Shown here: positions 6,076-26,678 of the stretch, piece by piece
How the letters are laid out: every line of letters starts with the position of its first letter
Numbering within the stretch: position 1 is the first letter of the stretch
DNA from: Rhodocaloribacter litoris
GTDB taxonomy: Bacteria; Bacteroidota; Rhodothermia; Rhodothermales; ISCAR-4553
Direction of reading: 5' to 3'
NCBI RefSeq assembly: GCF_011682235.2
Contig: NZ_CP076718.1
Span: 2,724,622-2,788,621 of the forward strand
Length of the DNA: 64,000 nt
Translations under genes and position numbers: made by a program
The notes under the pieces: generated by a model
Seen by the model: only the letters and a program-made list of their open reading frames with translations
Told to the model about the DNA's origin: nothing
The model's database searches: none

Positions 6076-8505
6076 ATGGCAGAAACGATACGGACACCGG
6101 TCTTCCAGCGGTACGACGTTCTGGAGAAGATCGGCAGCGGGAGTATGGGGGCCGTCTACAAGGCCCGCGACGTCCGGCTGGACCGGTACGTGGCGCTGAA
6201 GGTGCTGCCGCCGGGGCTGCGGGATCATCCCGAGTCGCTGGAGCGCTTCAAGCGGGAGGCACGGGTGCTGGCCCGGATGAAGCACCCGGGCGTGGCCTCG
6301 GTCTACGACGCCGACGTGGAGAGCGATTTCCCCTTCATGGTGATGGAGCTGGTCGAAGGGGAGAACCTGGAGCAGGTGTTGCGTGCCCGGGGACCGTTGC
6401 CGGTCGATGAGGTGATCCGGCTGGGCGGGGAGATCGCGGAGGCGCTCGAGCACATCCATTGCCATCGCATCGTGCACCGGGACATCAAGACGGCCAACAT
6501 CGTCATCGGGCCGGAGGGGCGGGCCGTCATCACCGACTTCGGCATTGCCTTCGTGGCGTCGTTGCCCCGGCTTTCGCACGGCACGCTCGGCACGCCCGAG
6601 TACATGAGCCCCGAGCAGGCCGACGGCCGGCCGATGGACGGGCGGTCGGACCTCTACAGTGTGGGGGTGGTGCTCTATGAGTGTCTCACGGGGAAGGTCC
6701 CGTTCGAGCGGGGCGGGGAGAGCCTCACGGCGCTGACCGATCTGTTGCGCCGGATTCTGGAGGAGCCGCCGCCGTCGCTCCGTAGCCGCCGGCCCGAGGT
6801 GCCGGCCTGGCTGGCCGAGGTCGTCGAGCGGTGCCTGGCCAAGAACCCGAACGACCGCTTTGCCCGGGCGGCCGAGCTGGCGGCGGCCCTCCAGCCGCCC
6901 CCGGTGATCGAGGTGCCGGCCACGGCGCCCGCTTCGCCGGTGCCGGCCACGTGGCAGCCCGAGAGCACCGCCTCGGTCCGATCCTCGACGATTCTCATCA
7001 GCCACGCCGAGGCCGTGGAGGCCGTGCGGTTCAGCCCGGACGGGCGCCGCCTGGCCACGGCGTGCAAGGACCGGGCGATCCGTGTCTGGGAGGTGCGGTC
7101 GGGCCGGCTGCTGCGCCTGTTGAAGGGTCCTTCGGCGCTGTCGGTCTCGTTTCGTCCCGGCGGGGTCTACCTGGCCGCCGGCTGCGTCGACGGCGTCGTC
7201 CGCATCTGGGACGTGGAAGGGGAGCGGCTGGTGCAGGCGATCCATGCCCACACGGGGTACGTTCTCTCGGTGGCCTACAGCCCGGCCGGCGACCACCTGG
7301 CCTCGGGGGCCATGGACGGAGCCGTTCACATCTGGCAGGCCCGCACGGGCCGGCTCGTGCGCACGCTCGGCCAGCACACGGGCTACGTGCTTTCGGTTTC
7401 CTTCAGCCCGGACGGCGCCAAGCTGGCCTCGGGCAGCGCCGACGGGGCTGTCCGCCTCTGGGACGTCAAGACGGGCCGGCTGCTGCGCCGCCTCAAGGGA
7501 CACGCCGGCTACATTCCCTCGGTTGCCTTCAGCCCGGACGGGGTGCGGCTGGCCTCCGGGGGTGTCGACGGGGCCGTCCGCCTCTGGGACGTCCGGAGCG
7601 GCCAGCTGTTGCACAAGCTCCAGGGACACAGCGACTGGGTGATGTCGGTTGCCTTCAGCCCGGACGGGGCGCAGCTGGCCAGCGCCGGGCGGGATCAGAG
7701 CATTCGCCTCTGGGATGCCCGGCGAGGTCGCCCGCTGGAGCGGCTCAAAGGGCACACGGGCGCCGTCATGTCGGTTGCCTTCAGCCCGGACGGCACCCGG
7801 CTGGTCTCCGGCAGCACCGACCACACGGCCCGGCTCTGGCATCTGGGGCGGCGCACGTTCCGGCCGGGACGCTGGCTCCGGTGGCTTGCCGTGGTGCTCC
7901 TCCTGGCGGCCCTGGTCGGCCTGGCCCTCTTTTTCGACCGTCTCCCGCTCGACCGGCTGTCCTTCAACCGGGCGGATCTGACCGGCCTCTTCGGCACCCC
8001 GACGGAAAACAACTCGGCTGTTTCTCGGCGGGGTGCCGGCTCCGGGTCGGTGAGGCCGGTCTCCCCCGCGCCGGTTCAGCCGCTGGCGCCCCCCGGCACG
8101 CACACGCCGGGGGGGCAACGGCCGGCATCTTCGTCCGGCCCGGAAACTTCATCCGAGGGGCGGGCTGGTTCCTCCGTGCTTCGCCCGGCCGCGCCACGGG
8201 ATGAGCTGTACGGGCCCGGTGGTCTCGTGCTGGGGCACGGGGGCTACACCCTCGTCGTGGCCGTCGAGACGAACCGGCACCGCGCGCAGGCGCTGGCTGC
8301 CCGCTACCGGGACGACGGCTTCCGCGTGGCCGTCCTGGGGGTGCTTTTCCAGGGCCGTCTTACGTACCGCGTCGTCGTCGGCCAGTTTGCAGGCTGGGAC
8401 GAAGCCGGCGCGGCCCGCCGCCGCCTCGTCCGGGGCGGGACCGTACCCTTCGACACCTGGATCATGCGCCTTCAACCTGCGGAACGCTGGCGCGTAGAGC
8501 GTTGA
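6076..8505 (+). CDS. Ser/Thr protein kinase with WD40 propeller, TM helix and SPOR-like domain
   Basis: An 809-residue receptor-like kinase. The Hanks-type kinase domain covers 13-270: glycine loop GSGSMGAVYKA (20-30), Lys42, catalytic HRDIKTAN (134-141), DFG (154-156) and TPEYMSPE (173-180). Seven WD40 repeats follow (about 308-592), each ending RLWD-like and enough for a closed propeller. One transmembrane helix lies near 603-621. After a Pro/Ser-rich linker, residues about 735-800 (YTLVVAVETNRHRAQALAARY, RVVVGQF) resemble a SPOR domain, a fold that binds peptidoglycan glycan strands. Expected topology places the kinase and propeller in the cytoplasm and the SPOR part outside. Most bacterial cell-wall kinases carry PASTA repeats in that position. 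It opens a cluster with PP2C, FHA and RodA-PBP genes. The SPOR call is by eye. Confidence 0.9.
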   Translation: MAETIRTPVFQRYDVLEKIGSGSMGAVYKARDVRLDRYVALKVLPPGLRDHPESLERFKREARVLARMKHPGVASVYDADVESDFPFMVMELVEGENLEQVLRARGPLPVDEVIRLGGEIAEALEHIHCHRIVHRDIKTANIVIGPEGRAVITDFGIAFVASLPRLSHGTLGTPEYMSPEQADGRPMDGRSDLYSVGVVLYECLTGKVPFERGGESLTALTDLLRRILEEPPPSLRSRRPEVPAWLAEVVERCLAKNPNDRFARAAELAAALQPPPVIEVPATAPASPVPATWQPESTASVRSSTILISHAEAVEAVRFSPDGRRLATACKDRAIRVWEVRSGRLLRLLKGPSALSVSFRPGGVYLAAGCVDGVVRIWDVEGERLVQAIHAHTGYVLSVAYSPAGDHLASGAMDGAVHIWQARTGRLVRTLGQHTGYVLSVSFSPDGAKLASGSADGAVRLWDVKTGRLLRRLKGHAGYIPSVAFSPDGVRLASGGVDGAVRLWDVRSGQLLHKLQGHSDWVMSVAFSPDGAQLASAGRDQSIRLWDARRGRPLERLKGHTGAVMSVAFSPDGTRLVSGSTDHTARLWHLGRRTFRPGRWLRWLAVVLLLAALVGLALFFDRLPLDRLSFNRADLTGLFGTPTENNSAVSRRGAGSGSVRPVSPAPVQPLAPPGTHTPGGQRPASSSGPETSSEGRAGSSVLRPAAPRDELYGPGGLVLGHGGYTLVVAVETNRHRAQALAARYRDDGFRVAVLGVLFQGRLTYRVVVGQFAGWDEAGAARRRLVRGGTVPFDTWIMRLQPAERWRVER

Positions 8506-8565: not shown

Positions 8566-10257
8566 ATGCCCGACGGTATCTCTCCCCCGCTCGACACGGC
8601 CGGTGGCGGTCACGACCGCGGTGTGCTTCTTTCCTGGGTGGACCTGCGCACCGACCCCTATTCGACCGGGCGTGACGGCGAACGCGAGGTCGGTCCCACG
8701 CTGACCCTGCTCTTTGATCCCGAGTCGCCGTACCGGGATCGCATCGGCCATGTCGTCCTGTTCTATCGCAAGCCGACCCACGATCCGAAGCGCCACGAGG
8801 ACTTTGCGGCCGCCGACGCCACGCGGAAGGAGATCGAGCGCCTGGGCGCCCGCCGCCGCATCAAGGTGGAACTCGTTCCCTGGCACGGCGAGGACCCGAC
8901 CGACCATCGCAGCCTGTTCGAGTTCCTGAACCCGCAGGTGACCGAGCTCGGCGAGCGGTTTGCCCGGCAACTGCTGGTGGTCCACATCAGCCCCGGAACC
9001 CCGGCCATGCAGACGGTGTGGGTCCTCATGGCCGAGATGGGGCTGATCCGCCGGCCGTTCGTGGCGGTGAAGAGCCTGCGCCGGGCCCACCGGGCGGGCC
9101 GTCCCGCCGTCGTACCCGTCAGCCTGGACATCCCCACCTTCTACAAAGCGTTCCACCGGGCCCGCCCCATGCACACCGCCCCGACCGAGGTCGGGGAGCG
9201 CGTCCTGTTCGATCCGCACCACTTCGTCTCCGACAAGCTCAAGCGCCTCTACGCCGATGCCCGCCGCTTCGCCCGGTTGAACGTGCCCATCCTCATCCTG
9301 GGCGAGCGCGGCACCGGCAAGACGACCCTGGCCTCGTGGATCCGGAGCAACAGCCCGTTCCGCCAGCCCCAGAAAGACGCTTCGTGGCCGTCGGTGCCGT
9401 GCAGCCAGTACAGCCCCGAGACGATGCGGGCCGAGCTCTTCGGCTACGTCAAGGGTGCCTTCACCGACGCCCGGCAGGATACCGAGGGCCTCCTCCATGC
9501 CGCCGACGGCGACACCCTCTTCCTCGATGAGATCGGCGACATCTCGCGCGACCTCCAGCGCCTGCTCATCCGCGCCCTCGAAGAGAAACGCTTTACCCGC
9601 GTCGGCGCCACCGTGCCCGAAGAGAGTCACTTCCGCCTCATCACGGCCACCAACCTGCCGTGGGACGAACTCCGAAAACGCCTCGACCCCGACTTCCTCG
9701 ATCGCATCAGCGTGCTCGTGCTGGAGGTGCCGCCCCTGCGCCAGGTGCGTGAAGACCTGCCCTGGCTCTGGCGCCGGCTCTTCCAGGAGGCGCTCGCACG
9801 CGCACAGGTGCCCGCCGGGCGGGTCCACCTCGACGCCGCCGGCCACGAGCGCGTCGTCCGCCACCTGTGCCGCCACCCGCTGCCGGGCAACCTGCGTGAC
9901 CTCTTCCGCGTGGCCTATCACCTCATTGCCACCTGTACCGACGAGCCTGATCCTGACCTTGCCGGAGACGACTGCATCGGCTACGCGCTCGAACAGGCCC
10001 TGGGCGGGCACGCCCGTCCCGTCGAACGGGAACGGCTGCCCCGTGCCGTCGCCGCCGCCTTCGCCCAGGACGAACCGCTCGACCCGCTCCTGCCCGACGG
10101 GCAGATCATCCCCACCCGCACCGTCGAGCGTGCCTTCCGCCGCTACCTGGCTGCCGAACTGCGCCGCATCGCCCGCCAGCGCGGCCTCCAGCCGCAGGAC
10201 CTGTGCGACATGACCGACCGCACCCTGCAGAAGTGGGTCAAGGAAGAGGGAGGTTGA
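8566..10257 (+). CDS. CARF-like sensor + sigma54-type AAA+ ATPase (RtcR-like regulator)
   Basis: 563-residue regulator. The N-terminal 200 residues resemble the CARF domain of RtcR, with HISPGTPAM (140-148) at the ligand-loop position of CARF folds. RtcR uses this domain to sense RNA ends. The AAA+ domain (about 215-465) has Walker A GERGTGKT (246-253) and Walker B LFLDEIGD (318-325). The loop that normally contacts sigma54 reads GAFTDA (297-302) instead of GAFTGA, so coupling to sigma54 may be altered. The C-terminal end (RTLQKWVKEEGG) suits a helix-turn-helix. No rtcB or rtcA gene is near. It sits between the SPOR kinase and the lytic transglycosylase in the same direction. Its target genes and ligand are unknown. 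Confidence 0.85.
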   Translation: MPDGISPPLDTAGGGHDRGVLLSWVDLRTDPYSTGRDGEREVGPTLTLLFDPESPYRDRIGHVVLFYRKPTHDPKRHEDFAAADATRKEIERLGARRRIKVELVPWHGEDPTDHRSLFEFLNPQVTELGERFARQLLVVHISPGTPAMQTVWVLMAEMGLIRRPFVAVKSLRRAHRAGRPAVVPVSLDIPTFYKAFHRARPMHTAPTEVGERVLFDPHHFVSDKLKRLYADARRFARLNVPILILGERGTGKTTLASWIRSNSPFRQPQKDASWPSVPCSQYSPETMRAELFGYVKGAFTDARQDTEGLLHAADGDTLFLDEIGDISRDLQRLLIRALEEKRFTRVGATVPEESHFRLITATNLPWDELRKRLDPDFLDRISVLVLEVPPLRQVREDLPWLWRRLFQEALARAQVPAGRVHLDAAGHERVVRHLCRHPLPGNLRDLFRVAYHLIATCTDEPDPDLAGDDCIGYALEQALGGHARPVERERLPRAVAAAFAQDEPLDPLLPDGQIIPTRTVERAFRRYLAAELRRIARQRGLQPQDLCDMTDRTLQKWVKEEGG

Positions 10258-10566
10258 GCCGGCATCGGCGGGAAGGGTCATGGGTGGCCCGCCCGGGGGA
10301 ACCTGGGCCGGTCCGTCGCAGGCATCCGGGTGCCCTGTGCCCGCTCCCGCCGGGGGGGCCCGCGGGTCCGAACGATCCTTCTTGCCGGGGCGACGAGGGA
10401 TTCGCCCCTCCGGCCCTGAAGAGCGGAAAGAACCAGCACGACACGTCTTTTGAGTCCCCCGGGCGGATCCGGTACGCCCTTTGGTGCCTGCCGGGATGAG
10501 CGACACAGGGCTGCCCTGGCCGCGTCATGCGGCCTGCGCGGCCCGGAAACCGGACCTGCCGACGAC
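10258..10566. other. Non-coding gap with one hairpin
   Basis: 309 bases between the AAA+ regulator and the lytic transglycosylase. The frames crossing it give Arg/Pro-rich shadow translations with no recognisable domain. A 7-bp hairpin (GGGGCGA at 10387-10393 with TCGCCCC at 10402-10408) is the only structure seen, and no T-run follows it. No promoter is recognised. Confidence 0.5.
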
Positions 10567-12720
10567 ATGACGATTGCGACCACGTTACCTCGCCCCTTGC
10601 TTTGTCCCTTTGCCCTGCTGGGCAGCCTGCTTTTCCTCGCCGCCTGCGCCAGCACGGGGCCGGGAGGAACCCCCTCGTGGACCGGTGTCACCGAGCGCCC
10701 GGCCACGAAGCACGAGCCGCGTGGCGAGCCACGCGCCGGCGAGCCCGCGGCGCAGAGCCGGGACGACGCGCCGTTGCCGCCTCCGGACGCCACGATGCTC
10801 CGCGCCCGCATCTACGAAGCCATGGCGCGGGTGAGCTATGCCCGGGCCGGCGGCGACCTCGAGGCCGTCGAGGCCGCGCTCGACGAGGCGATGGAGGGCA
10901 TCCGGCAGCTGGCCGCCACCCCCGGCACCCTCGACGATCCCGAGATGCGCGAACTCTACCGCTCCGTCGTCACCGCCTATGAACAGTACTACGGCGTGCC
11001 GGACACGCTCCAGACCGAATACGGCGAGATCTTCGCCTTTCGCGATGCCATGTTCGAGGCCATGAACGCGCTCGACGAGCCGCTCCTCGAAGACGTGATG
11101 CTGCCTCCTGTGACGCCCGCCGCGACGACCATCCCGCTGCACCGCAACCGCCTCGTCGAACAGAGCATCCGTTTCCTGCTCAAGGAACCGGACAGGCACC
11201 TGCACAAGTGGCTCAGCCGGGCCGCCACCTATTTTCCCATGATCGAGCAGATCCTTCGGGAAGAAGGCGTGCCGGACGAGTTGAAGTACCTGGCGATGAT
11301 CGAGAGCGGGCTCAACCCGCGGGCCCGCAGTCGTGCGAGTGCCGTCGGAATGTGGCAGTTCATGTCGGCCACGGGCCGGGCCTACGGATTGCAGGTGACG
11401 CACTGGGTCGATGAGCGGCGCGACCCCGAGAAGTCCACGCGGGCGGCGGCCCGGCACCTGCGTGATCTGTACGAGACGTTCGGCAACTGGCACTATGTGC
11501 TGGCCGCCTACAACAGCGGGGCCGGGCGGGTGCGGCAGGCCATGCGACGGGCCGGCGTCACCTCGGCCCGAGAGACGCCCGTGTGGGAGATCTACCCGTA
11601 CCTGCCGCGCGAGACGCGCAACTACATTCCCATGTTCATGGCCACCGTGATGGTTGCCTCGAACCCCGGGGCGTTCGGTGTGCAGCCGGTCGCGCCCGGC
11701 CCACGCTATGCCTACGACGTAGCCGAGGTCGAGGGGATGCTCGACCTCGGCCTGGTGGCCGAGATGGCCGGCACCGACGTAGAGACGATCCGTGCCCTCA
11801 ACCCCGAGCTGCGGCAGTGGGCCACGCCGCCTTCGAGCACGCCGTACCGCCTTCGCCTGCCTGCCGGCACGCGCGACCGCTTCACCGCGGCCTATGCGGC
11901 CTTGCCCGAGGAACGCCGGCAGAGCGTGGCAATCCACACCGTCCGTCGTGGCGATACCCTGGGCAAGATCGCCCGGCGCTACGACACCACCGTGGCAGCC
12001 ATCCAGGAGGTGAACGGCCTCCGGGGAACGACGATCCAGGTGGGACAGACGCTCCACGTGCCCGTTCGGTACGAAGCCTATGCCGGGGTCACGGCCTCCA
12101 CCGGCGGGCACGTGCAGTACGGGAGCCGCCCGCCGGGCGAGGACGCCACGCCGGTCGTGACGGCTTCCCTCACGGCCGGGGATCGTGCCGCCGGTCCGGC
12201 ACCCGGTGAGGCGGCATCCGAACACCGCACCCGCGTCCGCTACCACGTCCGGCGCGGCGACAACCTGACCGAGATCGCCCGGCGCTACGGCGTCACGGTG
12301 GACGATCTGCAGCGATGGAACGACCTCACCGGCAGCCGCATCTATCCGGGTCAGACGCTCACGGTCTATCCGGGCGAAGCCGGCACGGCGGCCTCCACCG
12401 GCCGGAAGGTCACCTACCAGGTACGGCCGGGCGACAACCTCACCCGGATCGCCGCACGGTATGGCGTCACGGTGGATGACCTGCGGCGGTGGAACGACCT
12501 CCGGAGCGATCACATCCGTGCGGGCCAGCGGCTAACCATCTATGCCGGCGAGCATACCGGCACCGGCGGCCGGTGGATCTCGTACACCGTCCGGCGCGGA
12601 GACACGCTGACCGAGATCGGCCGCCGCTACGGCGCCACACCGGCCGAGCTGCGCAAGTGGAACGCGCTCCGCACCGACCGCCTCCTGGTGGGACAGCGCC
12701 TGGCGATTTTCGTACGCTGA
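10567..12720 (+). CDS. Lipoprotein lytic transglycosylase with four LysM domains (MltD-like)
   Basis: 717-residue envelope lipoprotein that should cleave peptidoglycan glycan strands. A lipobox LAAC places the lipidated cysteine at residue 27, and this fixes the ATG at 10567 over a longer frame. The SLT domain covers about 215-345, with catalytic Glu246 in AMIESGLNP, then GMWQFMSATG and AAYNSGAGRV, as in MltD. Four LysM peptidoglycan-binding motifs follow at about 455-499, 557-601, 615-659 and 672-716, each beginning VRRGD or VRPGD. Four LysM copies is more than E. coli MltD has. The gene lies inside the kinase/phosphatase/RodA-PBP cluster, which suggests coupled regulation of cell-wall synthesis and turnover. 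Confidence 0.93.
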   Translation: MTIATTLPRPLLCPFALLGSLLFLAACASTGPGGTPSWTGVTERPATKHEPRGEPRAGEPAAQSRDDAPLPPPDATMLRARIYEAMARVSYARAGGDLEAVEAALDEAMEGIRQLAATPGTLDDPEMRELYRSVVTAYEQYYGVPDTLQTEYGEIFAFRDAMFEAMNALDEPLLEDVMLPPVTPAATTIPLHRNRLVEQSIRFLLKEPDRHLHKWLSRAATYFPMIEQILREEGVPDELKYLAMIESGLNPRARSRASAVGMWQFMSATGRAYGLQVTHWVDERRDPEKSTRAAARHLRDLYETFGNWHYVLAAYNSGAGRVRQAMRRAGVTSARETPVWEIYPYLPRETRNYIPMFMATVMVASNPGAFGVQPVAPGPRYAYDVAEVEGMLDLGLVAEMAGTDVETIRALNPELRQWATPPSSTPYRLRLPAGTRDRFTAAYAALPEERRQSVAIHTVRRGDTLGKIARRYDTTVAAIQEVNGLRGTTIQVGQTLHVPVRYEAYAGVTASTGGHVQYGSRPPGEDATPVVTASLTAGDRAAGPAPGEAASEHRTRVRYHVRRGDNLTEIARRYGVTVDDLQRWNDLTGSRIYPGQTLTVYPGEAGTAASTGRKVTYQVRPGDNLTRIAARYGVTVDDLRRWNDLRSDHIRAGQRLTIYAGEHTGTGGRWISYTVRRGDTLTEIGRRYGATPAELRKWNALRTDRLLVGQRLAIFVR

Positions 12721-12816: not shown

Positions 12817-13764
12817 ATGGCCGAGAAGCAGCGTCCCACCGCCCGCCAGATCGTCGACGCCGTCGTGCAGGCCATGCACGAGGCCCGGGAACCGCTCGAC
12901 GAAGACCTCATCCTGGTTCCTCCCGTCTTCGACGTGCTCCTGCACCCGTCGGCGTATCAGGACCTCCAGACACTTTTCCCGCGCATCAAGGAGCAGGCCA
13001 AGAAGCGGCTCGACGCCGAGCTCGAGCGGCTCAACCGGCAGCAAGGGGAGCGGCGTCTCTTCCGGCGTCTGCTTCATCAGGTCCTTCGGCTCTTTTCCGC
13101 CGAGCATTACCTCCGGCGTGCCTCCCGGGGCCGGGCACGCTATGAGCGTGCCGGCGAGGCATGGTCCATCGACATCGGCGTGACCGCCGAGCCCGACGCC
13201 GGCATCGACTATCTGGCCGTCGAGACCGATTTCGCCGCGCAGGCCCCGCCGCAGCTGAAGGGGCGCCCGACGGTGAACATCCGCCGCCGTACCCTGGTCC
13301 TCCCCGATGGCCGCCTCGAAACCGTTCTGACAACCGAGCGGCCCGAACGGGGTGCCGGGGGGGACGCTCGGCCGTCGTCCCGTCGTACGACCCGGCACCT
13401 GCCGGTGCCGTTGCCAGTGACCCCTGTCAATGCGCTGGCCCGCCTCACCTACGAAGACGACACCGGGTCGCATGTGGTCTACATGACCACCCCGCGTTTC
13501 CGCATCGGCCGGTACGATGCGACGGGCGACGTCGACCTGCCGCTCCACACCCTGCCCGACGTTTCCCGGGAGCATGCCTGCATCCGGCACGAGGGCCAGC
13601 AGGGGTTTGCCATCAAGGATCTGAGCCGGTTTGGCGTCACGGTCAACGGGAAAAAGATCCCTCCCGGCGAGAAGGGGGATCCGGAGGCCGGCTGGCACCC
13701 CCTGCCTCCGAAGGCCGAGATCGGGCTGGCCAATGCCGTTTTCATCACCTTCGAAGCCCTCTGA
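12817..13764 (+). CDS. FhaA-like protein with C-terminal FHA domain
   Basis: 315 residues. The C-terminal FHA phosphothreonine-binding domain (about 205-315) shows the conserved RIGR (229-232), SREHA (250-254) and SRFGVTVNG (270-278) residues. The N-terminal 60 residues (ILVPPVFDVLLHPSAYQDL and following helices) resemble the DUF3662 domain of actinobacterial FhaA. There is no signal peptide, so it should be cytoplasmic. It lies between the transglycosylase and the PP2C phosphatase. It would be expected to bind phosphorylated targets of the kinase encoded at 6076-8505, by analogy with FhaA, which recruits phosphorylated MviN in mycobacteria. The start ATG follows a short repeat-filled gap without a Shine-Dalgarno sequence. 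The DUF3662 match is by eye. Confidence 0.85.
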   Translation: MAEKQRPTARQIVDAVVQAMHEAREPLDEDLILVPPVFDVLLHPSAYQDLQTLFPRIKEQAKKRLDAELERLNRQQGERRLFRRLLHQVLRLFSAEHYLRRASRGRARYERAGEAWSIDIGVTAEPDAGIDYLAVETDFAAQAPPQLKGRPTVNIRRRTLVLPDGRLETVLTTERPERGAGGDARPSSRRTTRHLPVPLPVTPVNALARLTYEDDTGSHVVYMTTPRFRIGRYDATGDVDLPLHTLPDVSREHACIRHEGQQGFAIKDLSRFGVTVNGKKIPPGEKGDPEAGWHPLPPKAEIGLANAVFITFEAL

Positions 13765-13872: not shown

Positions 13873-14853
13873 ATGTATACCCCGTCCCATATCCTTTCTG
13901 CGGCCTCTCCGGTGAGCGGGTTTCGGGCCTTCGGGGCCACCGACCCGGGGCGGGAGCGCGAGCACAATGAGGACTGTTTCATCTGCGAGCCGGCATGCGG
14001 CCACTTTGCGGTGATCGACGGGGTGGGGGGCTATGCGGCCGGGGAGGTGGCCGCTGCGCTCGCCCGGGACCTCATAGCGGCGCAGCTCCGCCGGGGGACG
14101 GGTACGCCCGGGGAGCGGATCCGCCAGGCCATCGTCGCCGCCAACCGGGTCATCTACCAGCAGGGCCGCAGCCACCCGGGCCGCCGGGGCATGGCCTGCG
14201 TGCTCACCGTCGCCGTCGTCGAGGATGGCTTCGTCACCGTCGGGCACGTGGGCGACACGCGCCTGTACGTGATCCGTCGGGACGGTATCACCAAGGTAAC
14301 CCGCGACCACTCCGTCGTAGGCCTCCGCGAAGACCGGGGCGAGCTCAGCGAGTGGGAGGCTATGCTCCATCCCCGGCGCAACGAGATTCTCCGGGACGTC
14401 GGGTCGGTCTGGTGGGCGCCGGAGGATGAAGCGTGGGTCGATCTGTATCGTTTCCCCTTTTTGCCGGACACGGCTCTGCTCCTGTGCTCGGACGGCCTGA
14501 CGGACCTGGTGCCCAGTGACGTGCTCCGGCAGACGGTGCTGGCTCATGCCGGGCATCCCGGGCGAAGTGTAGCGGCCCTCATCGACCTGGCGAACCGGGC
14601 CGGCGGGTATGACAACATCACGGTGATCGTGGTGGAGGGGGAAGCGTTTGCGCCGGGCTCCCTGCCGGACGCTCCTTCGGATGGGCCGGAAGGACATGAC
14701 GCGCCGCCGGTGGAGGCCGGCATCCGGAAGGTGCACACCGGTTCGTTGCGGCTGCCACCCCCTGTGTGGCCGGCCGGGGCCACGTTGCTCCTGGTGGTCT
14801 TGTTCTGGTTGTTCTGGCGGGTATGGGATGCCGTGCAGCACGCGGGTCCGTGA
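13873..14853 (+). CDS. PP2C-family (PstP-like) protein phosphatase with C-terminal TM helix
   Basis: 326 residues. The metal-dependent Ser/Thr phosphatase domain (about 15-255) has the motifs REHNEDCF (Asp34), VIDGVGGY (Asp49), GHVGDTRLYV, CSDGLTDLV and GYDNITVIVV, so all main metal ligands are present. A linker and one hydrophobic helix near the C-terminus (TLLLVVLFWLFW) anchor it to the membrane with the catalytic part in the cytoplasm. Mycobacterial PstP has the same layout and reverses PknA/PknB phosphorylation, though PstP also has an outer domain that is missing here. The neighbours are FHA and RodA-PBP genes, so it probably opposes the SPOR kinase. Confidence 0.93.
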   Translation: MYTPSHILSAASPVSGFRAFGATDPGREREHNEDCFICEPACGHFAVIDGVGGYAAGEVAAALARDLIAAQLRRGTGTPGERIRQAIVAANRVIYQQGRSHPGRRGMACVLTVAVVEDGFVTVGHVGDTRLYVIRRDGITKVTRDHSVVGLREDRGELSEWEAMLHPRRNEILRDVGSVWWAPEDEAWVDLYRFPFLPDTALLLCSDGLTDLVPSDVLRQTVLAHAGHPGRSVAALIDLANRAGGYDNITVIVVEGEAFAPGSLPDAPSDGPEGHDAPPVEAGIRKVHTGSLRLPPPVWPAGATLLLVVLFWLFWRVWDAVQHAGP

Positions 14854-14935: not shown

Positions 14936-17900
14936 ATGGGAACGCATCGGCGCATCGATACCGCTGCGGTCCGGGTTCTGCGAATGCGCATGCAGGAACG
15001 GCGCCTGTTGCTGGCGGCCTCGCTCCTGGTGGCCTTCGGGCTGTTGCTCACGTACCGGGCGAAGACCCGTGCCTTCGAGCAGGTCGAGGCGCTGCTGGCC
15101 GCCGGAGAGGTTGTGAACCTGAACGCGCTCGAGAGCAGCCGTGCGCTGATGCCGGCCCTGGCGGTCGTCTTTCCGGATCCGGATGACCGCCGCGTCGTTG
15201 CCGGGCATATCTATACCTACGTGCTCCGGAACCGGAAGCCCTGGTTCCTTGGCGATCCGGTGCCGAACGTAGGATTCCTGAACACGGCCGCGCTCGATCT
15301 TCCGGCTCGCCTGGCCGAACAGGGCGGGCCGGTGTTGCGCGAGCGACTGGCGCGCAGCCGGGCCCGTCTCGGCCTGGCGCCCGACGGCCGGGTGAGCGGG
15401 GATTCGGTCCGTACGGTGCACGCCGCCGCCGGCCCGCTGCGTCTCGAAGGACGGGTCGTCGATGAGACGGGAGCACCCATGGCCGGGGTGGCGGTCACGC
15501 TACGAGGCACGCGCGCGGCCGACACCCGTACCGGTCCGGACGGCCGTTTCCGCTTCGAGGGGTTGCAGCCGGGGGACAGTCTCGTGATGCGCCCCGTGGC
15601 GCGCTATCTAGCCTTCACACCCGTGCGGTACGCTCCGCTCTCCGGAAACGGGGAGCACACGTTCCGGGCCCGCCCGCATCGCCTGCCCCTCTTCGAAGAG
15701 GCCGCGGCGTTTCAGCGGCTCAAGCCGCGCCTCGTCGTGCGTGCGCCGGCCGGGTATGCCCGCCGGTTTGCCGGGCTCACGCTGCTCTATTTCGCCGTTT
15801 TCTATGGACTTCATCTTTTCTGGTTCAGACGTCGTTTTGCCGGCGACCCCGTGCTCCTGCCGGTGCTCCATCTGCTCACCGGGCTGGGCTTCATGCTCAT
15901 GCTGAGCCTTCCGGATCCGCTGCGTGACCTCATGCGGGCACAGGGGTTCGTCACGGGTGTGGTGGCCGGCGGGTTGTTGCTCGGAGTGGTCAGCCAGATG
16001 GATTTCCAGGACAAACGGTGGCGCAGTCATACGTTCGCATGGCTCGGGACGGGCGGGATCCTGGCTGCCCTGCTCTATTGCTTCGGTACCGGGCCGGCCG
16101 GTAGCGGGGCTCGGATCAACCTTGTGCTCCCGGTGGTGGGAAGCGTGCAACCGGTCGAGCTCATCAAACTCTGCCTGGTCCTTTTTCTGGCCGGCTATTT
16201 CGCCCGGAACTGGGAATTTCTGCGCAGTCTCCGGCAGCGTGAAGGCCTGCCGCGCCTCCTGCACCGGTTCGATATGCCCCGCCTTCGCGATGTGCTCCCG
16301 GTTGTGGCCGGCGTGCTGTCGGCGCTGCTGATCTTCTTCGCCCTGCAGGACATGGGGCCGGCGCTCGTGCTCACCTGTACCTTTCTGGTGCTCTACGGCA
16401 TCGTGCGCAGCCGCTGGGCGGCCGTTCTCACGGGTTTTGCCGTGCTTGCCGGCGTCTTCTGGTACACCTACAGACTGGAGGTCGTGCCGGTGGTGGCCGG
16501 CCGCATCGAGATGATGCTCTCGCCCTGGGAAAACTTCGTCCGTGGGGGGGAGCACCTGGCCCATGCATACTGGGCGATGGCCACCGGCGGCGTGACGGGG
16601 CAGGGGATCGGGCAGGGGTATCCAGGCTACATCCCGGCGGCACATACCGACATGGTGCTCCCTGCTCTGGGAGAGGAGCTCGGCCTGGCCGGGCTGCTCG
16701 CGGTGTTCGCTCTGTACCTGGTGTTCCTGTGGCGGGCTTTTCGGATCGCGCTCGGCGCACGCGGCGTCTACAGCCTCTTTCTTGGCCTCGGCGTGGCACT
16801 GCTGATCCTCTTTCAGGTGCTTTTCATCGCCGGGGGAGCCTTCGGTCTGATCCCGCTCTCGGGCGTGGTGACCCCGTTCCTCAGCTACGGGAAGTCGTCG
16901 ATAGTGGTGCACTGTGCGCTGGCCGGCATCCTGATGAGCCTCTCGGCCCATCCCGGCACGGAGATCCAGCGCTCGGCACAGCAGGCAAGCTTCGGGCGCC
17001 CCGTCCACTACGTGACCGCCGCGGCGTTTGTGCTCTTCGCCGTGCTCGGTGCCCGGGCCGCGTACATCCAGGGCGGGCAGGCCGACGCCTGGGTGCTTCG
17101 CCCGGCACTCGTCCCCCGCGAGGACGGCGAGCGGGCCTACGTCTACAACCCCCGCCTGCTCGAAGCCCGGCAGCTTCTCACGCGCGGCACCATCTACGAC
17201 CGCAACGGCCTGCCGCTGGCCAGCAGCCGGTGGGACGAGATCGAGCGATTCCGCACCGTGTACGAGCAGCTCGGCGTGCAGGTCGACCGGCTCAACCGGA
17301 CGGATCCCCGCTACTATCCCTTCGGGGCGCTCACCTTCTACCTGCTCGGCGACATCCGGACCCGCGTGAAATGGGGTGCCACGAACAGCCTCTACGCCGA
17401 GCATGCCTTCCTTTCTTACCTGCGGGGATACGACAACCGCCCGGAGGCCGTCGAAAAGCCGCGGAGCCGGGCGGGCGGGACGGCCACCATCGTTCGGTAT
17501 GATTATTCGGAACTGACCGCGCTCGTCCGGCACGGGACGCGCAGCCCGGAGGCCCGGGCCCTCCTTCGCCGCAACCGCGATCTTTACCTGACCGTCGATG
17601 TGCGGCTGCAACAACGGGTGGCCGAGATTCTGGCCGAACGGGCGCCGGCAGGCAAGGTGGCCTCGGCGGTCGTGCTCGATGCCGCCACGGGGGATGTGCT
17701 GGCGTCGGTGACCTACCCGCTGCCCGACCTCAGCCGCCCGGCCGCCGTGCACCGGGATCCCGCTTTCTTCGACCGCGGGTTCGGGCAGGGCGCCAAGCCC
17801 CCCGGCTCTACGTTCAAGCTGGTGACGGCGATGGCCGCCCTGCACCGGGACCGCGACGCCCTGTACCGGACGTACGAGATCCATGCCTTCGACCGCTACG

Positions 17901-18607
17901 CCCGGCGCAACGAACCCACCGGGCGCGTGGATCTGGCGCGGGCCCTCATCGCCTCCTCGAACGTCTATTTCGCCCGCCTGGCCCGTGAGGTCGTCGGGGT
18001 CGATTCGCTGCTGGCGATGATGGAACCGTTCGGCTTCCGGGTGGGCGGGTACGGCCGGTCGTACGCGGCCCGGCGGGCCCTGCTGCTGGAGCCGGATAAC
18101 CTGCGGCAGGCCGGCTTCGGACAGGGGCCGGTGACGGCCAGCCCGCTGGAGGTGGCCCGGGTGGCGGCGGCCATCGCCAACGACGGGGCCCTGCCTCCGG
18201 TGCGGTGGGTCCGCCATCCCGACACGGCGCGGCGGCCCGTGCGCTACGTCCTCCTGCCCCCGGATGCCCGCATCCTCGCCCGGATCATGCGCCGCGTCGT
18301 CACCGACCGGGAAGGGACCGCCCGCGCCCTGCGCGATCTCTCGGTGCCGATCGCTGGAAAGACGGGCACGGCCGAGGAGAAGAAGACCGTCGTGCGGGAC
18401 GGCAGGCCGGTGCGGATCACGCTGAACCATGCGTGGTTTACCGGCTTCGCGCCCTATCATGAACCCGGCACCGGGCGTGGCCCGCGGATCGCCGTGGCCG
18501 TGCTCGTGGAGGAGGGAGGCGCCGGCGGCCGGGTGGCCGCCCCCATCGCCGGTGCCATCGTGGAGGCCGCCGCCGACCTCGGCCTCATCCGCCGTGACGA
18601 ACAATAA
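14936..18607 (+). CDS. RodA/FtsW (SEDS) - class B penicillin-binding protein fusion
   Basis: A 1223-residue single polypeptide combining a SEDS peptidoglycan glycosyltransferase and a transpeptidase. An N-terminal helix (about 22-40) leads to an outer region with a carboxypeptidase-regulatory-like fold (about 165-245). SEDS helices run from about 275 to 670, with PVELIKL (406-412), AHTDMVLPALGEELG (569-583) and LSYGKSSIV (649-657). The usual SEDS form of the last motif is SYGGSS, so Lys replaces Gly. A further helix (about 692-710) precedes the penicillin-binding part. This has STFK (Ser958, Lys961), SSN (1007-1009) and KTG (1142-1144), all the catalytic residues. In most bacteria RodA and PBP2 are separate partners. 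Neighbouring FHA, PP2C and kinase genes suggest phospho-control. The start could also be the ATG 16 codons later. Confidence 0.93.
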   Translation: MGTHRRIDTAAVRVLRMRMQERRLLLAASLLVAFGLLLTYRAKTRAFEQVEALLAAGEVVNLNALESSRALMPALAVVFPDPDDRRVVAGHIYTYVLRNRKPWFLGDPVPNVGFLNTAALDLPARLAEQGGPVLRERLARSRARLGLAPDGRVSGDSVRTVHAAAGPLRLEGRVVDETGAPMAGVAVTLRGTRAADTRTGPDGRFRFEGLQPGDSLVMRPVARYLAFTPVRYAPLSGNGEHTFRARPHRLPLFEEAAAFQRLKPRLVVRAPAGYARRFAGLTLLYFAVFYGLHLFWFRRRFAGDPVLLPVLHLLTGLGFMLMLSLPDPLRDLMRAQGFVTGVVAGGLLLGVVSQMDFQDKRWRSHTFAWLGTGGILAALLYCFGTGPAGSGARINLVLPVVGSVQPVELIKLCLVLFLAGYFARNWEFLRSLRQREGLPRLLHRFDMPRLRDVLPVVAGVLSALLIFFALQDMGPALVLTCTFLVLYGIVRSRWAAVLTGFAVLAGVFWYTYRLEVVPVVAGRIEMMLSPWENFVRGGEHLAHAYWAMATGGVTGQGIGQGYPGYIPAAHTDMVLPALGEELGLAGLLAVFALYLVFLWRAFRIALGARGVYSLFLGLGVALLILFQVLFIAGGAFGLIPLSGVVTPFLSYGKSSIVVHCALAGILMSLSAHPGTEIQRSAQQASFGRPVHYVTAAAFVLFAVLGARAAYIQGGQADAWVLRPALVPREDGERAYVYNPRLLEARQLLTRGTIYDRNGLPLASSRWDEIERFRTVYEQLGVQVDRLNRTDPRYYPFGALTFYLLGDIRTRVKWGATNSLYAEHAFLSYLRGYDNRPEAVEKPRSRAGGTATIVRYDYSELTALVRHGTRSPEARALLRRNRDLYLTVDVRLQQRVAEILAERAPAGKVASAVVLDAATGDVLASVTYPLPDLSRPAAVHRDPAFFDRGFGQGAKPPGSTFKLVTAMAALHRDRDALYRTYEIHAFDRYARRNEPTGRVDLARALIASSNVYFARLAREVVGVDSLLAMMEPFGFRVGGYGRSYAARRALLLEPDNLRQAGFGQGPVTASPLEVARVAAAIANDGALPPVRWVRHPDTARRPVRYVLLPPDARILARIMRRVVTDREGTARALRDLSVPIAGKTGTAEEKKTVVRDGRPVRITLNHAWFTGFAPYHEPGTGRGPRIAVAVLVEEGGAGGRVAAPIAGAIVEAAADLGLIRRDEQ

Positions 18608-18812: not shown

Positions 18813-20183
18813 ATGGAACCCGCGAACGCACAGCTCACGCACCGGGCCCGCGTGGGCGATGCCCTCGATCTGTTGCACCGGGTGCTCCATCCCTATATCG
18901 AACGCGAGATGCGGGCGGTCTACGGGGACCGGTGGGAACGCGAGGCGCGGGGTGTGTTGCACGGCAAGCCGATTGAGACGTGGGATACGAGTGACCTGCT
19001 CACCCTCCTTTACACGAAGTTCCATCCGGTCTTTCGCGACATCGGTCACGAGGGGCGGAGCTGGGTGAGCCTGCTCCGGGAGATTCGCAAGAAGTGGGCG
19101 CACCAGGGGACGCTCTCGCTCGATGAGACGCGCCGCACGCTGGAGACGGCGATCCTGCTCTTGCGGGCCATCGGTGCCGAGCCCGAGGCAGAGCGGCTGG
19201 AACCGCATGTGCTGGACCTGATGCGGTCCGAGCTGGAGGAGCGCCTGGCGCCGGGCGAGGACGCGGCCTGGATGGAGAAGGCGCGGGAGGCTATCGAGGC
19301 CCGGAAGGAGGCGGTCGGCCGGAGCCGGGACCGCACCCCCGGGGAAGGGGTCCGTGCGCTCTGGGAGGCCGGCGTCCGCCGGATCCGGACTCTGTTCCAT
19401 CGCCCGCCCTCGGAGCCGCTAGAAGTGCGCCGCACCCTCCTCGACGCCATCGAGCACGCCGCCGAGCCGTACCGGCGCGACTTCCCCTTCAACCGGCTCG
19501 TCGTGCACGTCTGTGTGCCGGACGAGCGCACCCGGCAGCGCTACGAGGCGGCGCTGGAGCGGCAGCGTGAACCTTTTGCCGTGGCCGTCCTGCGTCGCCT
19601 GGCCGATGCCCGCATCCCCGTGCCGGCTAGCCTGCACGTGAGCTGGCGCTTTCATCGTACCCCGCCGAAGAAACTCGAAGCCGCGTTCGAGGCCGTGCCC
19701 TACCACATCGAGTGGCAGCGGCGCCGTCCGGCCGGCACCGCCACGTTGAAGGTGCTCCGGGGGCGGGCGCACAAGGAGCAGTACGTGATCCGGGGCGGTG
19801 CGCCCGTCACACTCGGGCGGCAGGCCGAGGTCACCGACGCGCGCGGGCGGGTCGTCTGGCGCAACGCCGTCGCGTTCCTCGACTACGAGGACGACCGGCT
19901 GACCGAGGAGGAACGCGAGGTGCATGCCACCATCTCCCGCGTCCATGCCCGCATCGAGTACGACGAGACGGAAGATGCCTTCCGGCTCTACGACGCGCAG
20001 AGCACCTGCGGGACGTCCGTCGTGCGCGAGGGCTTTCTGGTGCCGTTCCAGGTGCGGCAGCAGCCCGTGCCCCTGCAGGACGGCGATCTCATCTATCTGG
20101 GCAAGGCCTGTCTCCGGTTCAACCTGGGCCGTCCTTCGGGACGGGCGCCGCGCCGGGGCCGCCCGCCGCGTTCCGCTACCTGA
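18813..20183 (+). CDS. Swt1-type HEPN domain + FhaA-like region + FHA domain protein
   Basis: 456 residues in three parts. Residues about 15-125 match the Swt1-type HEPN domain. They include RSWVSLLREI and the RxxxxH motif RKKWAH (Arg92, His97), the catalytic signature of HEPN ribonucleases. A middle region (about 210-315, FNRLVVHVCVPDERT and following) resembles the FhaA N-terminal domain. The C-terminal FHA domain (about 325-440) has VTLGRQ, ISRVHARIEY and STCGTSV. No signal peptide is seen. An FHA module tied to a possible RNase suggests phosphothreonine-controlled RNA cleavage or scaffolding; this is inference. It closes the cluster that begins with the SPOR kinase. Whether the HEPN part is active is not known, since some HEPN domains only bind. 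Confidence 0.78.
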   Translation: MEPANAQLTHRARVGDALDLLHRVLHPYIEREMRAVYGDRWEREARGVLHGKPIETWDTSDLLTLLYTKFHPVFRDIGHEGRSWVSLLREIRKKWAHQGTLSLDETRRTLETAILLLRAIGAEPEAERLEPHVLDLMRSELEERLAPGEDAAWMEKAREAIEARKEAVGRSRDRTPGEGVRALWEAGVRRIRTLFHRPPSEPLEVRRTLLDAIEHAAEPYRRDFPFNRLVVHVCVPDERTRQRYEAALERQREPFAVAVLRRLADARIPVPASLHVSWRFHRTPPKKLEAAFEAVPYHIEWQRRRPAGTATLKVLRGRAHKEQYVIRGGAPVTLGRQAEVTDARGRVVWRNAVAFLDYEDDRLTEEEREVHATISRVHARIEYDETEDAFRLYDAQSTCGTSVVREGFLVPFQVRQQPVPLQDGDLIYLGKACLRFNLGRPSGRAPRRGRPPRSAT

Positions 20184-21199: not shown

Positions 21200-21844
21200 A
21201 TGGAAAAGAAATCCAGCTTTGCCCTGCAGAGCCTGCTGGCGGTTCTGATCCTGAATGCGCTGCTGCTCGTGACGATTTACGTGATCGGGGGAGAGGCGCT
21301 GGCCGGGAAGGCGCCCCTGGTCTTTGGCCTGGGCGGTATACTGACGCTGGTGCTGTGGTTCGTGGTGACGCGGCTGGCCCGTCGCCTGGAAGGAGCTTCC
21401 CCGAAGGAGGGGGCAGCGCGGGCGCCGGCCGAACGCCCCGCGCCCGCGCTGCCGGAGCAACCTGCCGAGGCGGCGGCCCTCCAGCTCCTTGCCATCCTCC
21501 AGCGCAAAGGCCGCCTGCTCGACTTTCTCCAGGAGGATCTGAGTGCCTACGGTGACGCCCAGATCGGCGCGGCCGTGCGGGCCGTCCACGAGGGCTGTAA
21601 GAAGGCGCTCGAGGAGCACGTCTCGCTGGTGCCCGTGCTCGACCGGCCCGAGGGCAGCCCGGTCACCGTCGAGCCGGGCTTCGACGCCCGGGCCATCCGG
21701 CTCACGGGCAACATCACCGGTGCGCCGCCGTTCAAAGGCACGCTCCGTCACCGGGGCTGGCGCGTCGAGCGGATCGAGCTGCCGACGCTGATGCACGCGC
21801 AGGACCGTGTGGTGGCGCCCGCCGAGGTGGAAGTCGGCACCTGA
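21200..21844 (+). CDS. DUF2760 domain protein with two N-terminal TM helices
   Basis: 214 residues. Two hydrophobic helices (about 8-30 and 38-60) are followed by an Ala/Pro linker. The DUF2760 domain then runs from about 95 to 210 and is recognised by RLLDFLQEDLSAYGDAQIGA, VHEGCKKAL, PGFDARAIRLTGNITG and PFKGTLRHRGWRV. DUF2760 genes commonly precede Hsp70-like genes in bacteria, as here: two Hsp70-like genes follow after 152 bases. The protein probably anchors or partners these chaperone-like ATPases at the membrane. That role is inferred from context, and no biochemical function is established to my knowledge. Confidence 0.85.
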   Translation: MEKKSSFALQSLLAVLILNALLLVTIYVIGGEALAGKAPLVFGLGGILTLVLWFVVTRLARRLEGASPKEGAARAPAERPAPALPEQPAEAAALQLLAILQRKGRLLDFLQEDLSAYGDAQIGAAVRAVHEGCKKALEEHVSLVPVLDRPEGSPVTVEPGFDARAIRLTGNITGAPPFKGTLRHRGWRVERIELPTLMHAQDRVVAPAEVEVGT

Positions 21845-21996
21845 GATCTGCCGGCACCTGGTTCGGGGGGGATGCGGGCCCCGGGAAGTAAAGCCCGGGG
21901 GTGCCTCTCATCCCCCTGTGTCTTCGGGGCGAGGACGATCCGTTTGCTTCCTTTCCCGCGCCCCCGCCAGGCCCGTAAACCCTTTCCGAACGTACC

Positions 21997-23837
21997 ATGA
22001 GCGATCCCAGATACATCGTCGGCATCGACCTGGGCACCACGCACTGTGTGGTGGCCTACACCCGTGCCGCGCCGGAGGCGCTGGAACGGCCCGAGATCCG
22101 GCTGTTCGAGATCCCGCAGGTGGTGAGTCCGGGCGAGGTGCAGGCCCGTCCGCTTCTGCCCTCGTTTCTGTTCCTGCCCGGCCCGCACGACGTGCCCGAG
22201 GGCGGTCTGGCGCTGCCCTGGAAGCCGGACGCCGGCGAGGCGGTGGGGGAATATGCCCGCGAGCGCGGGGCCGAGATTCCGAACCGGCTGGTGGCCTCGG
22301 CCAAGTCGTGGCTCTCGCATACGGGGGTCGACCGTACCGCGCCCATCCTGCCGTGGGATGCCCCCGGGGATGCCCGCCGCGTCTCGCCCGTCGAGGCCGC
22401 CACGCGCTACCTGGCCCACATCCGGGAGGCCTGGAACCACGTCATGGCGGCCGGCGACCCGCAGGCCCGCCTCGAAGAGCAGGAAGTTTATCTGACCGTT
22501 CCCGCCTCCTTCGACGCCGTCGCCCGGGAGCTGACGGTGCAGGCCGCCCGGGCCGCCGGGCTGGAAAAGCTGACGCTCCTCGAGGAGCCCCAGGCTGCCT
22601 TCTACGCCTGGCTCGAAGCCCGGGGCGATGCCTGGCGCGAGGAGGTCCACGTCGGCGAGTCCATCCTCGTCTGCGATGTCGGCGGTGGCACCACCGACTT
22701 CAGCCTCATCGAGGTCGTCGAGGAAGACGGTAACCTGGACCTGCGCCGCGCCGCCGTCGGGGATCACATCCTCCTCGGCGGGGACAACATGGACCTGACG
22801 CTGGCCTACGCCGTCCGGGCCCGGCTGGCGCAAGAGGGCACCCGCCTCGACAACTGGCAGTTCCGGACGCTGGTGCACGGCTGCCGGAAGGCCAAGGAGC
22901 ACCTGCTGGGCCATCCGGACCTGGAGGCCGTGCCGGTCGTCATCCCCGGGCGAGGCTCCGCCCTCATCGGCGGCACCATCCGCACCGAGCTGACGCGGCA
23001 GGAGATCGAGGCGATCCTGGTGCAGGGCTTCTTCCCCGAGACGCCGCCGGACGCTTTCCCCGAGCGCAGGCCGAAGGTCGGGATGCGCGAGATGGGCCTG
23101 CCCTACGAATCCGACCCGGCCATCACCCGGCACCTGGCCTACTTCCTCCACCGGCAGGTGGCCGGGAACGGCGAGGCGGGCGTCGCCTTCCCCTCCGCCG
23201 TGCTTTTCAACGGCGGGGTGATGAAGGCCGGGTCGCTGCGCGAGCAGGTGCTCCGCGTGCTCCGGCAGTGGAGCAGCAACGACGCCCTGCGGGCCCTTCC
23301 GTCGGTGGACCTGGACCAGGCCGTGGCCATCGGTGCGGCCTACTACGGGCTGGCGCGGAAGGGGCGCGGCATTCGCATCCGTGCGGGTACGGCCCGCTCC
23401 TATTACATCGGCATCGAGAGCGCCATGCCCGCCGTGCCCGGTATCCCCGCGCCGATGAAGGCCCTGTGCGTGGTTCCCTTCGGTATGGAGGAGGGCACCG
23501 AGGCCGACATCCGGGGCCGGGAGTTCGGCCTCGTCGTCGGCGAGCAGGCCGTCTTCCACCTGCTGGCCTCGAACACGCGCAAGACGGACCCGCCCGGCGA
23601 GATCATCGAGGACTGGGACGGCGAGCTGGCCGAGGTCATCACCATGGAAACGACCCTTCCGGCCACCGACGCCGAGGGCGGCGGCACCGTCCTGCCCGTG
23701 TGGCTCCACAGCAAGGTCACCGAGATCGGCACGCTCGAGCTCTGGTGCGTGGCCCGCGACGGCGACCGGCGGTGGAAGCTGGAGTTCAACCTCCGCGACG
23801 TACCGCAGGAAGCCGGTGGCCCGGCCGAGCAGCACGG

Positions 23838-23841
<4 letters not shown>
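21997..23841 (+). CDS. Hsp70-family ATPase (first of a pair)
   Basis: 614 residues with the Hsp70/actin ATPase fold. The phosphate-1 loop is GIDLGTTHCVVAY (9-21), phosphate-2 is VCDVGGGTTDFSL (about 224-236), and the later VLFNGGVMKAG segment is the adenosine-motif region. The C-terminal about 130 residues do not look like the DnaK substrate-binding domain with its LLLDV linker, so this is not a housekeeping DnaK. No dnaJ or grpE is adjacent. The gene overlaps the next one by 4 bases (ATGA), implying translational coupling. It may act with its neighbour and the DUF2760 protein as one complex; this is inferred from the operon. Confidence 0.9.

Positions 23842-26678
<2,837 letters not shown>

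Follow-up and report, generated by a model that had tools for sequence, protein, structure and literature searches.

The window analysed here, a stretch of 64,000 nucleotides from the genome of Rhodocaloribacter litoris, encodes a protein of 456 amino acids (18813–20183, ATG start; the genes of its cluster described below lie on the same + strand) in which an N-terminal HEPN domain of the HEPN_Swt1 family is fused, via a middle domain, to an FHA domain. Within a conserved cell-wall cluster that comprises a Ser/Thr kinase, a PP2C phosphatase, a first FHA protein (FHA1), and a SEDS-PBP fusion, it represents the second FHA protein (FHA2). The domains and gene types involved are all known, but the literature searched contained neither the fusion nor its cell-wall-cluster setting. 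A preliminary description of this DNA had likewise known of no characterization of the combination of HEPN and FHA, and the closest fusion on record joins a PIN RNase domain to FHA (PMC7159879). In our preferred reading, whose chances we put a little short of even, the protein would be a phosphorylation-steered HEPN RNase that serves a cell-envelope kinase cluster and is possibly coupled to RNA-damage sensing. Its observed basis consists of the domains, motif conservation, synteny, purifying selection, and the co-occurrence of the HEPN-FHA gene with an RtcR-like gene, while RNase activity, control by phosphorylation, an envelope signal, and the RtcR link are what we infer.

The identity of the two named domains is almost certain. 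The Pfam model HEPN_Swt1 (PF18731) matched residues 17–121 with 90.1 bits (curated cut-off 27.5; E=1.5e-25), and the FHA model (PF00498) matched residues 371–430 with 34.6 bits (cut-off 20.7; E=2.5e-8), which bears out the preliminary description of a Swt1-type HEPN domain with the motif RKKWAH next to an FHA domain. Based on the Pfam match, relatives that align across residues 8–145, and an AlphaFold2 model, the HEPN domain was delimited to residues 8–135 (18834–19217). It is followed by a variable linker (residues 136–197), the middle domain (approximately residues 198–312; 19404–19748), and the FHA domain (residues 313–440; 19749–20132), which has a long insert and contains, in addition to a sufficient profile score, the family residues G335-R336, S375-R376-x-H378, and G400-T401. 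The gene is the sole HEPN_Swt1 gene of the genome and one of its four FHA genes. The conserved middle domain, which goes beyond the preliminary description, resembled no known family in Pfam or in a comparison with the N-terminus of FHA1. An FhaA_N-like nature of this domain was considered and rejected, as there was no Pfam match and hhalign against the FhaA_N-type N-termini of FHA1 gave E=0.13; judging from the sequences, the FhaA-like protein of the cluster is FHA1, not the HEPN-FHA protein.

An AlphaFold2 model of the first 150 residues, computed from an input alignment of five viral-contig relatives and one orthologue, is all helical with a pLDDT of 86. The preliminary description had expected a fold search to return HEPN, and the top five rows of VIA-align with this model were indeed all HEPN structures, namely the C-terminal domain of yeast Swt1 (4pqz, Z 8.1), AbiF-ncRNA (8vz6, Z 7.5), Csm6 (4rgp, Z 7.4), A. 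fulgidus HEPN (2hsb, Z 7.3), and a HEPN-MNT toxin (8xeh, Z 7.0), although, for a helical bundle, Z scores of 7–8 are modest and values under 13 count as weak. Foldseek alone returned no match under 0.001 for the HEPN model, its best rows being mostly globins, and a PDB sequence search gave no matches. A full-length AlphaFold model built from two sequences (pLDDT 54) was discarded. Taken together, the 90-bit sequence match and the VIA-align ranking make the HEPN assignment almost certain.

The HEPN-middle-FHA architecture occurs in 3 of 114 Rhodothermales genomes from two families: the window's own genome (G000), a genome of the same family (G001; protein 73% identical), and a genome of another family of the order (G008; 61%). 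Both domains are intact in the two orthologues; an internal stop in the G008 orthologue was considered and rejected, the protein being an intact ORF of 424 amino acids. In all three genomes the gene lies directly behind the SEDS/transpeptidase fusion gene. Three genomes of family f4 encode the middle and FHA domains in the same cluster position without HEPN, and HEPN-less FHA2 proteins are also found in this place in more distant families of the phylum; an older FHA2 protein therefore either gained the HEPN domain or lost it. Among 13 orthologous proteins, G-R and H of the FHA domain are invariant and S-R is kept in 12, while G-T is kept in the three HEPN-bearing proteins. One f4 genome (G028) has an additional, divergent HEPN-middle-FHA protein of 566 amino acids with the motif RHDHAH, whose HEPN_Swt1 match (E=7e-6) is just below the cut-off and whose FHA part escaped Pfam and was recognized by alignment with FHA2. 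Its gene is flanked, together with FHA1 and PP2C genes, by three caspase-domain (Peptidase_C14) genes (L112 on contig C44: 466–1851, 6008–8017, and 8058–9323). Apart from matches to the FHA region, HEPN-FHA proteins of this divergent type were found in no other genome of the order (114) or phylum (394). A plasmid scan gave no full-length HEPN-FHA protein, its matches covering HEPN or other parts and less than 80% of the query. Given that other phyla were sampled solely via pattern scans of plasmids, viral contigs, and species genomes, the fusion may occur more often than these counts suggest.

The R-x4-6-H motif of HEPN RNases is present as RKKWAH at residues 92–97 of the window protein (Arg92, 19086–19088; Lys93, 19089–19091; His97, 19101–19103) and as RKRWAH and RKTWAH in the two orthologues. 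The preliminary description had singled out Arg92 and His97, and these two residues are invariant in all 10 aligned Swt1-type sequences (3 FHA-linked and 7 DUF499-type). The residue following the catalytic Arg, which had not been commented on, is Lys in all three FHA-linked proteins versus Asn in the seven DUF499-type proteins compared; in HEPN RNases this position is mostly N, D, or H, which is typical and not absolute, and it plays a part in KEN-domain catalysis (PMC3710099). Because Lys93 replaces the usual Asn/Asp/His, RNase activity of the HEPN domain is predicted as probable, not certain. The Lys shared by all three members could instead indicate that the HEPN domain no longer cuts and has become a module for RNA binding or pairing that connects the FHA protein either with RNA or with itself, in which case the protein would be a cell-wall regulator, as are other FHA proteins from clusters of this type. 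HEPN domains thought to bind RNA and not to cleave it are known, including those of eukaryotic Swt1 and part of MtlR (PMC3710099), and the HEPN-less orthologues in the same cluster place also fit such a role. However, the decisive Arg and His are invariant over 58–73% overall identity, and the divergent G028 protein keeps R-x4-H as well. In addition, HEPN is the best conserved region of the protein, with identities to the two orthologues of 84% and 74%, as compared with 80% and 58% for FHA, 70% and 57% for the middle domain, and 50% and 37% for the linker, and its dN/dS of 0.16–0.32 against them indicates purifying selection. We regard a non-cutting HEPN domain as somewhat unlikely and retain the RNase reading.

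Farthest upstream among the cluster genes described here is a transmembrane Ser/Thr kinase (6076–8505) composed of a kinase domain, a WD40 propeller, a transmembrane helix, and a C-terminal SPOR domain (Pkinase E=1.1e-50, SPOR E=7.7e-10, and WD40 matches, with HRD and DFG motifs visible). After an RtcR-like activator gene come a lytic transglycosylase with SLT and four LysM domains detected by Pfam (10567–12720, with the start at 10450 in the ORF list; syntenic in G001 and G008), FHA1 (12817–13764) with an FhaA_N-like N-terminus (Pfam FHA 1.2e-9, FhaA_N 0.0011; 4.9e-6 for FhaA_N in the orthologue at L062), a PP2C phosphatase of the Stp1/PstP type (13873–14853), and a fusion of SEDS (FtsW/RodA) with a class B PBP transpeptidase (14936–18607), identified by Pfam. 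In G008, the phosphatase is itself fused to the latter in a single ORF of 1384 amino acids (L061:8262–12416), so that a single polypeptide combines phosphatase, glycan polymerase, and crosslinker. The SEDS-PBP protein of the window contains a CarboxypepD_reg insert in its N-terminal part; the SEDS-PBP fusion is sporadic in the order, with strong matches in 7 of the 60 genomes searched. The order of the cluster is preserved in G008 and split over two contigs in G001, where the RtcR-like gene is preceded by a FabH-like gene, not the kinase gene. All families examined at the level of genes have SEDS-PBP directly upstream of the FHA2 gene; this order is kept in G001, in G008, in f4, and in another three families of the phylum, and genes for PP2C, FHA1, or a kinase are close by. 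More distant clusters of the phylum also contain kinase, PP2C, SEDS-PBP, and FHA2. Neither a sigma70 promoter nor a terminator was found on the coding strand between SEDS-PBP and the HEPN-FHA gene. Farther downstream (21200–26678) lie a DUF2760 gene and, after it, a pair of Hsp70-like genes, of which the second contains DUF3731; they were considered as part of the system and rejected, being unmatched in the retrieved orthologous regions. SPOR domains of other proteins bind bare peptidoglycan glycan, and the known targets of bacterial cell-wall kinases include wall enzymes as well as some RNA-binding proteins. The link to protein phosphorylation that the preliminary description had drawn from the FHA domain gains from this context, as the cluster also encodes the Ser/Thr kinase, the PP2C phosphatase, and FHA1, and control of the HEPN-FHA protein by phosphorylation appears slightly favoured.

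The gene following the kinase (8566–10257) encodes a CARF-AAA(sigma54)-HTH activator whose best NCBIfam model is RtcR (E=6.2e-52). This model aligns from residue 79, within the N-terminal domain, whereas nearly all other listed models of sigma54 activators align from about residue 187 or later, and an RtcR-type CARF domain (about 8617–9165) thus precedes AAA and HTH. Its score is 177 bits against an equivalog cut-off of 650, and it is also below the Pfam RtcR cut-off, which is exceeded by a 51% identical paralogue in G008 that matched the CARF region of E. coli RtcR in a single BLASTP comparison (E=2e-8). This paralogue (L085:8173–9831) is located beside HsdM/HsdS-like type I restriction-modification (R-M) genes and an AAA ATPase gene, an instance of the R-M neighbourhood already described for RtcR-like proteins that do not belong to the Rtc system (PMC4012209). 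The RtcB gene is more than 1.1 Mb away from the RtcR-like gene in G000 and absent in G008, so rtcBA is not its neighbour. Proteins of approximately 330 amino acids that combine an RtcR-like CARF region with an uncharacterized C-terminal part were also observed in other families of the phylum (L103, L104, L105, and L108).

A complete RtcR-like gene of this kind is present in 3 of the 114 genomes of the order, which are precisely the three HEPN-FHA genomes, and in all three it is directly upstream of the LysM-FHA1-PP2C genes. These are not three independent cases, since the identities of the window SEDS-PBP protein (65–71% to G008 and G001 versus 44–49% to f4 and f6) suggest that they may reflect one event in one lineage. 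It is nearly an even chance that shared descent alone explains the proximity of the two genes, that they do not work together, and that the RtcR-like protein controls genes elsewhere, an explanation that competes solely with the RtcR part of our preferred reading. All three co-occurrences may trace to one acquisition, sigma54 promoters in the cluster are at chance level (60 matches versus 64 expected), and G008 has its second RtcR-like copy elsewhere. On the other hand, the position directly upstream of LysM-FHA1-PP2C in every case speaks against mere shared descent, and the pairing of RtcR and HEPN RNase recurs in unrelated CoCoNuT systems (PMC11090510). By analogy with the latter, a functional link between the RtcR-like activator and HEPN-FHA may exist, although we consider it rather doubtful.

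The same genes might also be viewed as a defence or programmed-death system, in which the kinase reads phage attack or envelope breach, the HEPN RNase halts the infected cell, and the RtcR-like protein is a defence regulator. The nearest HEPN_Swt1 relatives are found in plasmid DUF499/DUF1156 restriction-type loci, and on a Chlorohelix plasmid (L072, 7995–14892) the gene of a HEPN_Swt1 protein lies downstream of a DUF1156 gene, with TIR-domain and Ser/Thr kinase genes beside it. The R-M neighbours of the G008 paralogue, comparable to those of the RtcR-like proteins in PMC4012209, the three caspase-domain genes around the divergent G028 protein, and the existence of PIN-FHA effectors in conflict systems (PMC7159879) point in the same direction. 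However, the window cluster has no other defence gene, PADLOC detecting nothing in it beyond weak phosphatase- or ATPase-type matches, and the cell-wall genes that accompany HEPN-FHA are conserved over a wider part of the phylum, so a defence role seems improbable.

If the preferred reading of a phosphorylation-steered RNase is followed through, the membrane kinase, with SPOR outside and the kinase domain and WD40 propeller inside, would phosphorylate Thr residues on itself, FHA1, or SEDS-PBP, and PP2C would reverse these marks. The FHA domain would bind phosphothreonine and thereby place, pair, or release the HEPN domain; in other HEPN RNases, the active site is formed between two HEPN copies. 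The HEPN domain might then cut RNA, perhaps tRNA or mRNA, and slow translation upon envelope disturbance. HEPN RNases typically cleave RNA independently of metals. As they leave 2′,3′-cyclic phosphate RNA ends (PMC3710099), such ends could be read by the RtcR-like activator of the cluster, which would create a feedback or damage-response loop. Lys93 in place of Asn, the HEPN-less clusters of other families, the modest VIA-align and non-significant Foldseek values, the possible single origin of the co-occurrence, the chance-level sigma54 promoters, the FabH-like gene in place of the kinase gene in G001, and the lack of RtcB in G008 count against this working, and the complete circuit, from a peptidoglycan-sensing kinase and PP2C marks through an FHA-switched HEPN RNase to the sensing of cyclic-phosphate ends, is unlikely to hold in full. 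If true, an RNase fused to the phosphothreonine reader of the cluster would provide a direct route from envelope signals to RNA cleavage. Moreover, an RtcR-like sensor of broken RNA and a likely RNase in one cluster outside restriction systems would make RNase-to-CARF feedback of the CoCoNuT type testable in a smaller setting.

Several known systems share parts of this arrangement. The Swt1-like/Ava_2192 HEPN proteins (Anantharaman 2013, PMC3710099) belong to the same HEPN subfamily, with about 34–41% identity over the domain and an R-x-x-WAHQ motif; they accompany a DUF499 AAA ATPase in restriction-type loci and have Asn after the Arg, whereas the window protein has Lys, a middle domain and FHA, and a cell-wall cluster as its setting. 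The actinobacterial fhaA-fhaB-pstP-rodA-pbpA-pknA-pknB locus (PMC6554272) likewise clusters kinase, PP2C, FHA proteins, SEDS, and class B PBP, and includes an FHA protein that begins with an FhaA_N-like region, as FHA1 does. The window cluster differs in that SEDS and PBP are joined in a single chain, WD40 and SPOR take the place of PASTA in the kinase, and FHA2 carries an RNase-type domain. The activator has the CARF-AAA-HTH order of RtcR (PMC7790460, PMC4012209), but it is far under the equivalog cut-off, not beside rtcBA, and groups with the RtcR-like proteins of R-M loci. In CoCoNuT type IV restriction systems (PMC11090510), for which feedback of this kind was proposed, an RtcR homologue lies upstream of, and in the same direction as, an operon with a HEPN RNase, and a kinase and PP2C (TerY-P) are often present. 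This parallel to the pairing of the RtcR-like and HEPN-FHA genes is suggestive, although the window cluster lacks the McrBC-type GTPase, helicase, and coiled-coil proteins, and its HEPN domain is fused to FHA. The nearest precedent is provided by the PIN-FHA effectors of vWA-MoxR ternary conflict systems (PMC7159879), which likewise have FHA and an RNase domain on a single polypeptide; there, the RNase domain is PIN and the setting a vWA-MoxR system, whereas the window protein joins HEPN to FHA within a cell-wall cluster.
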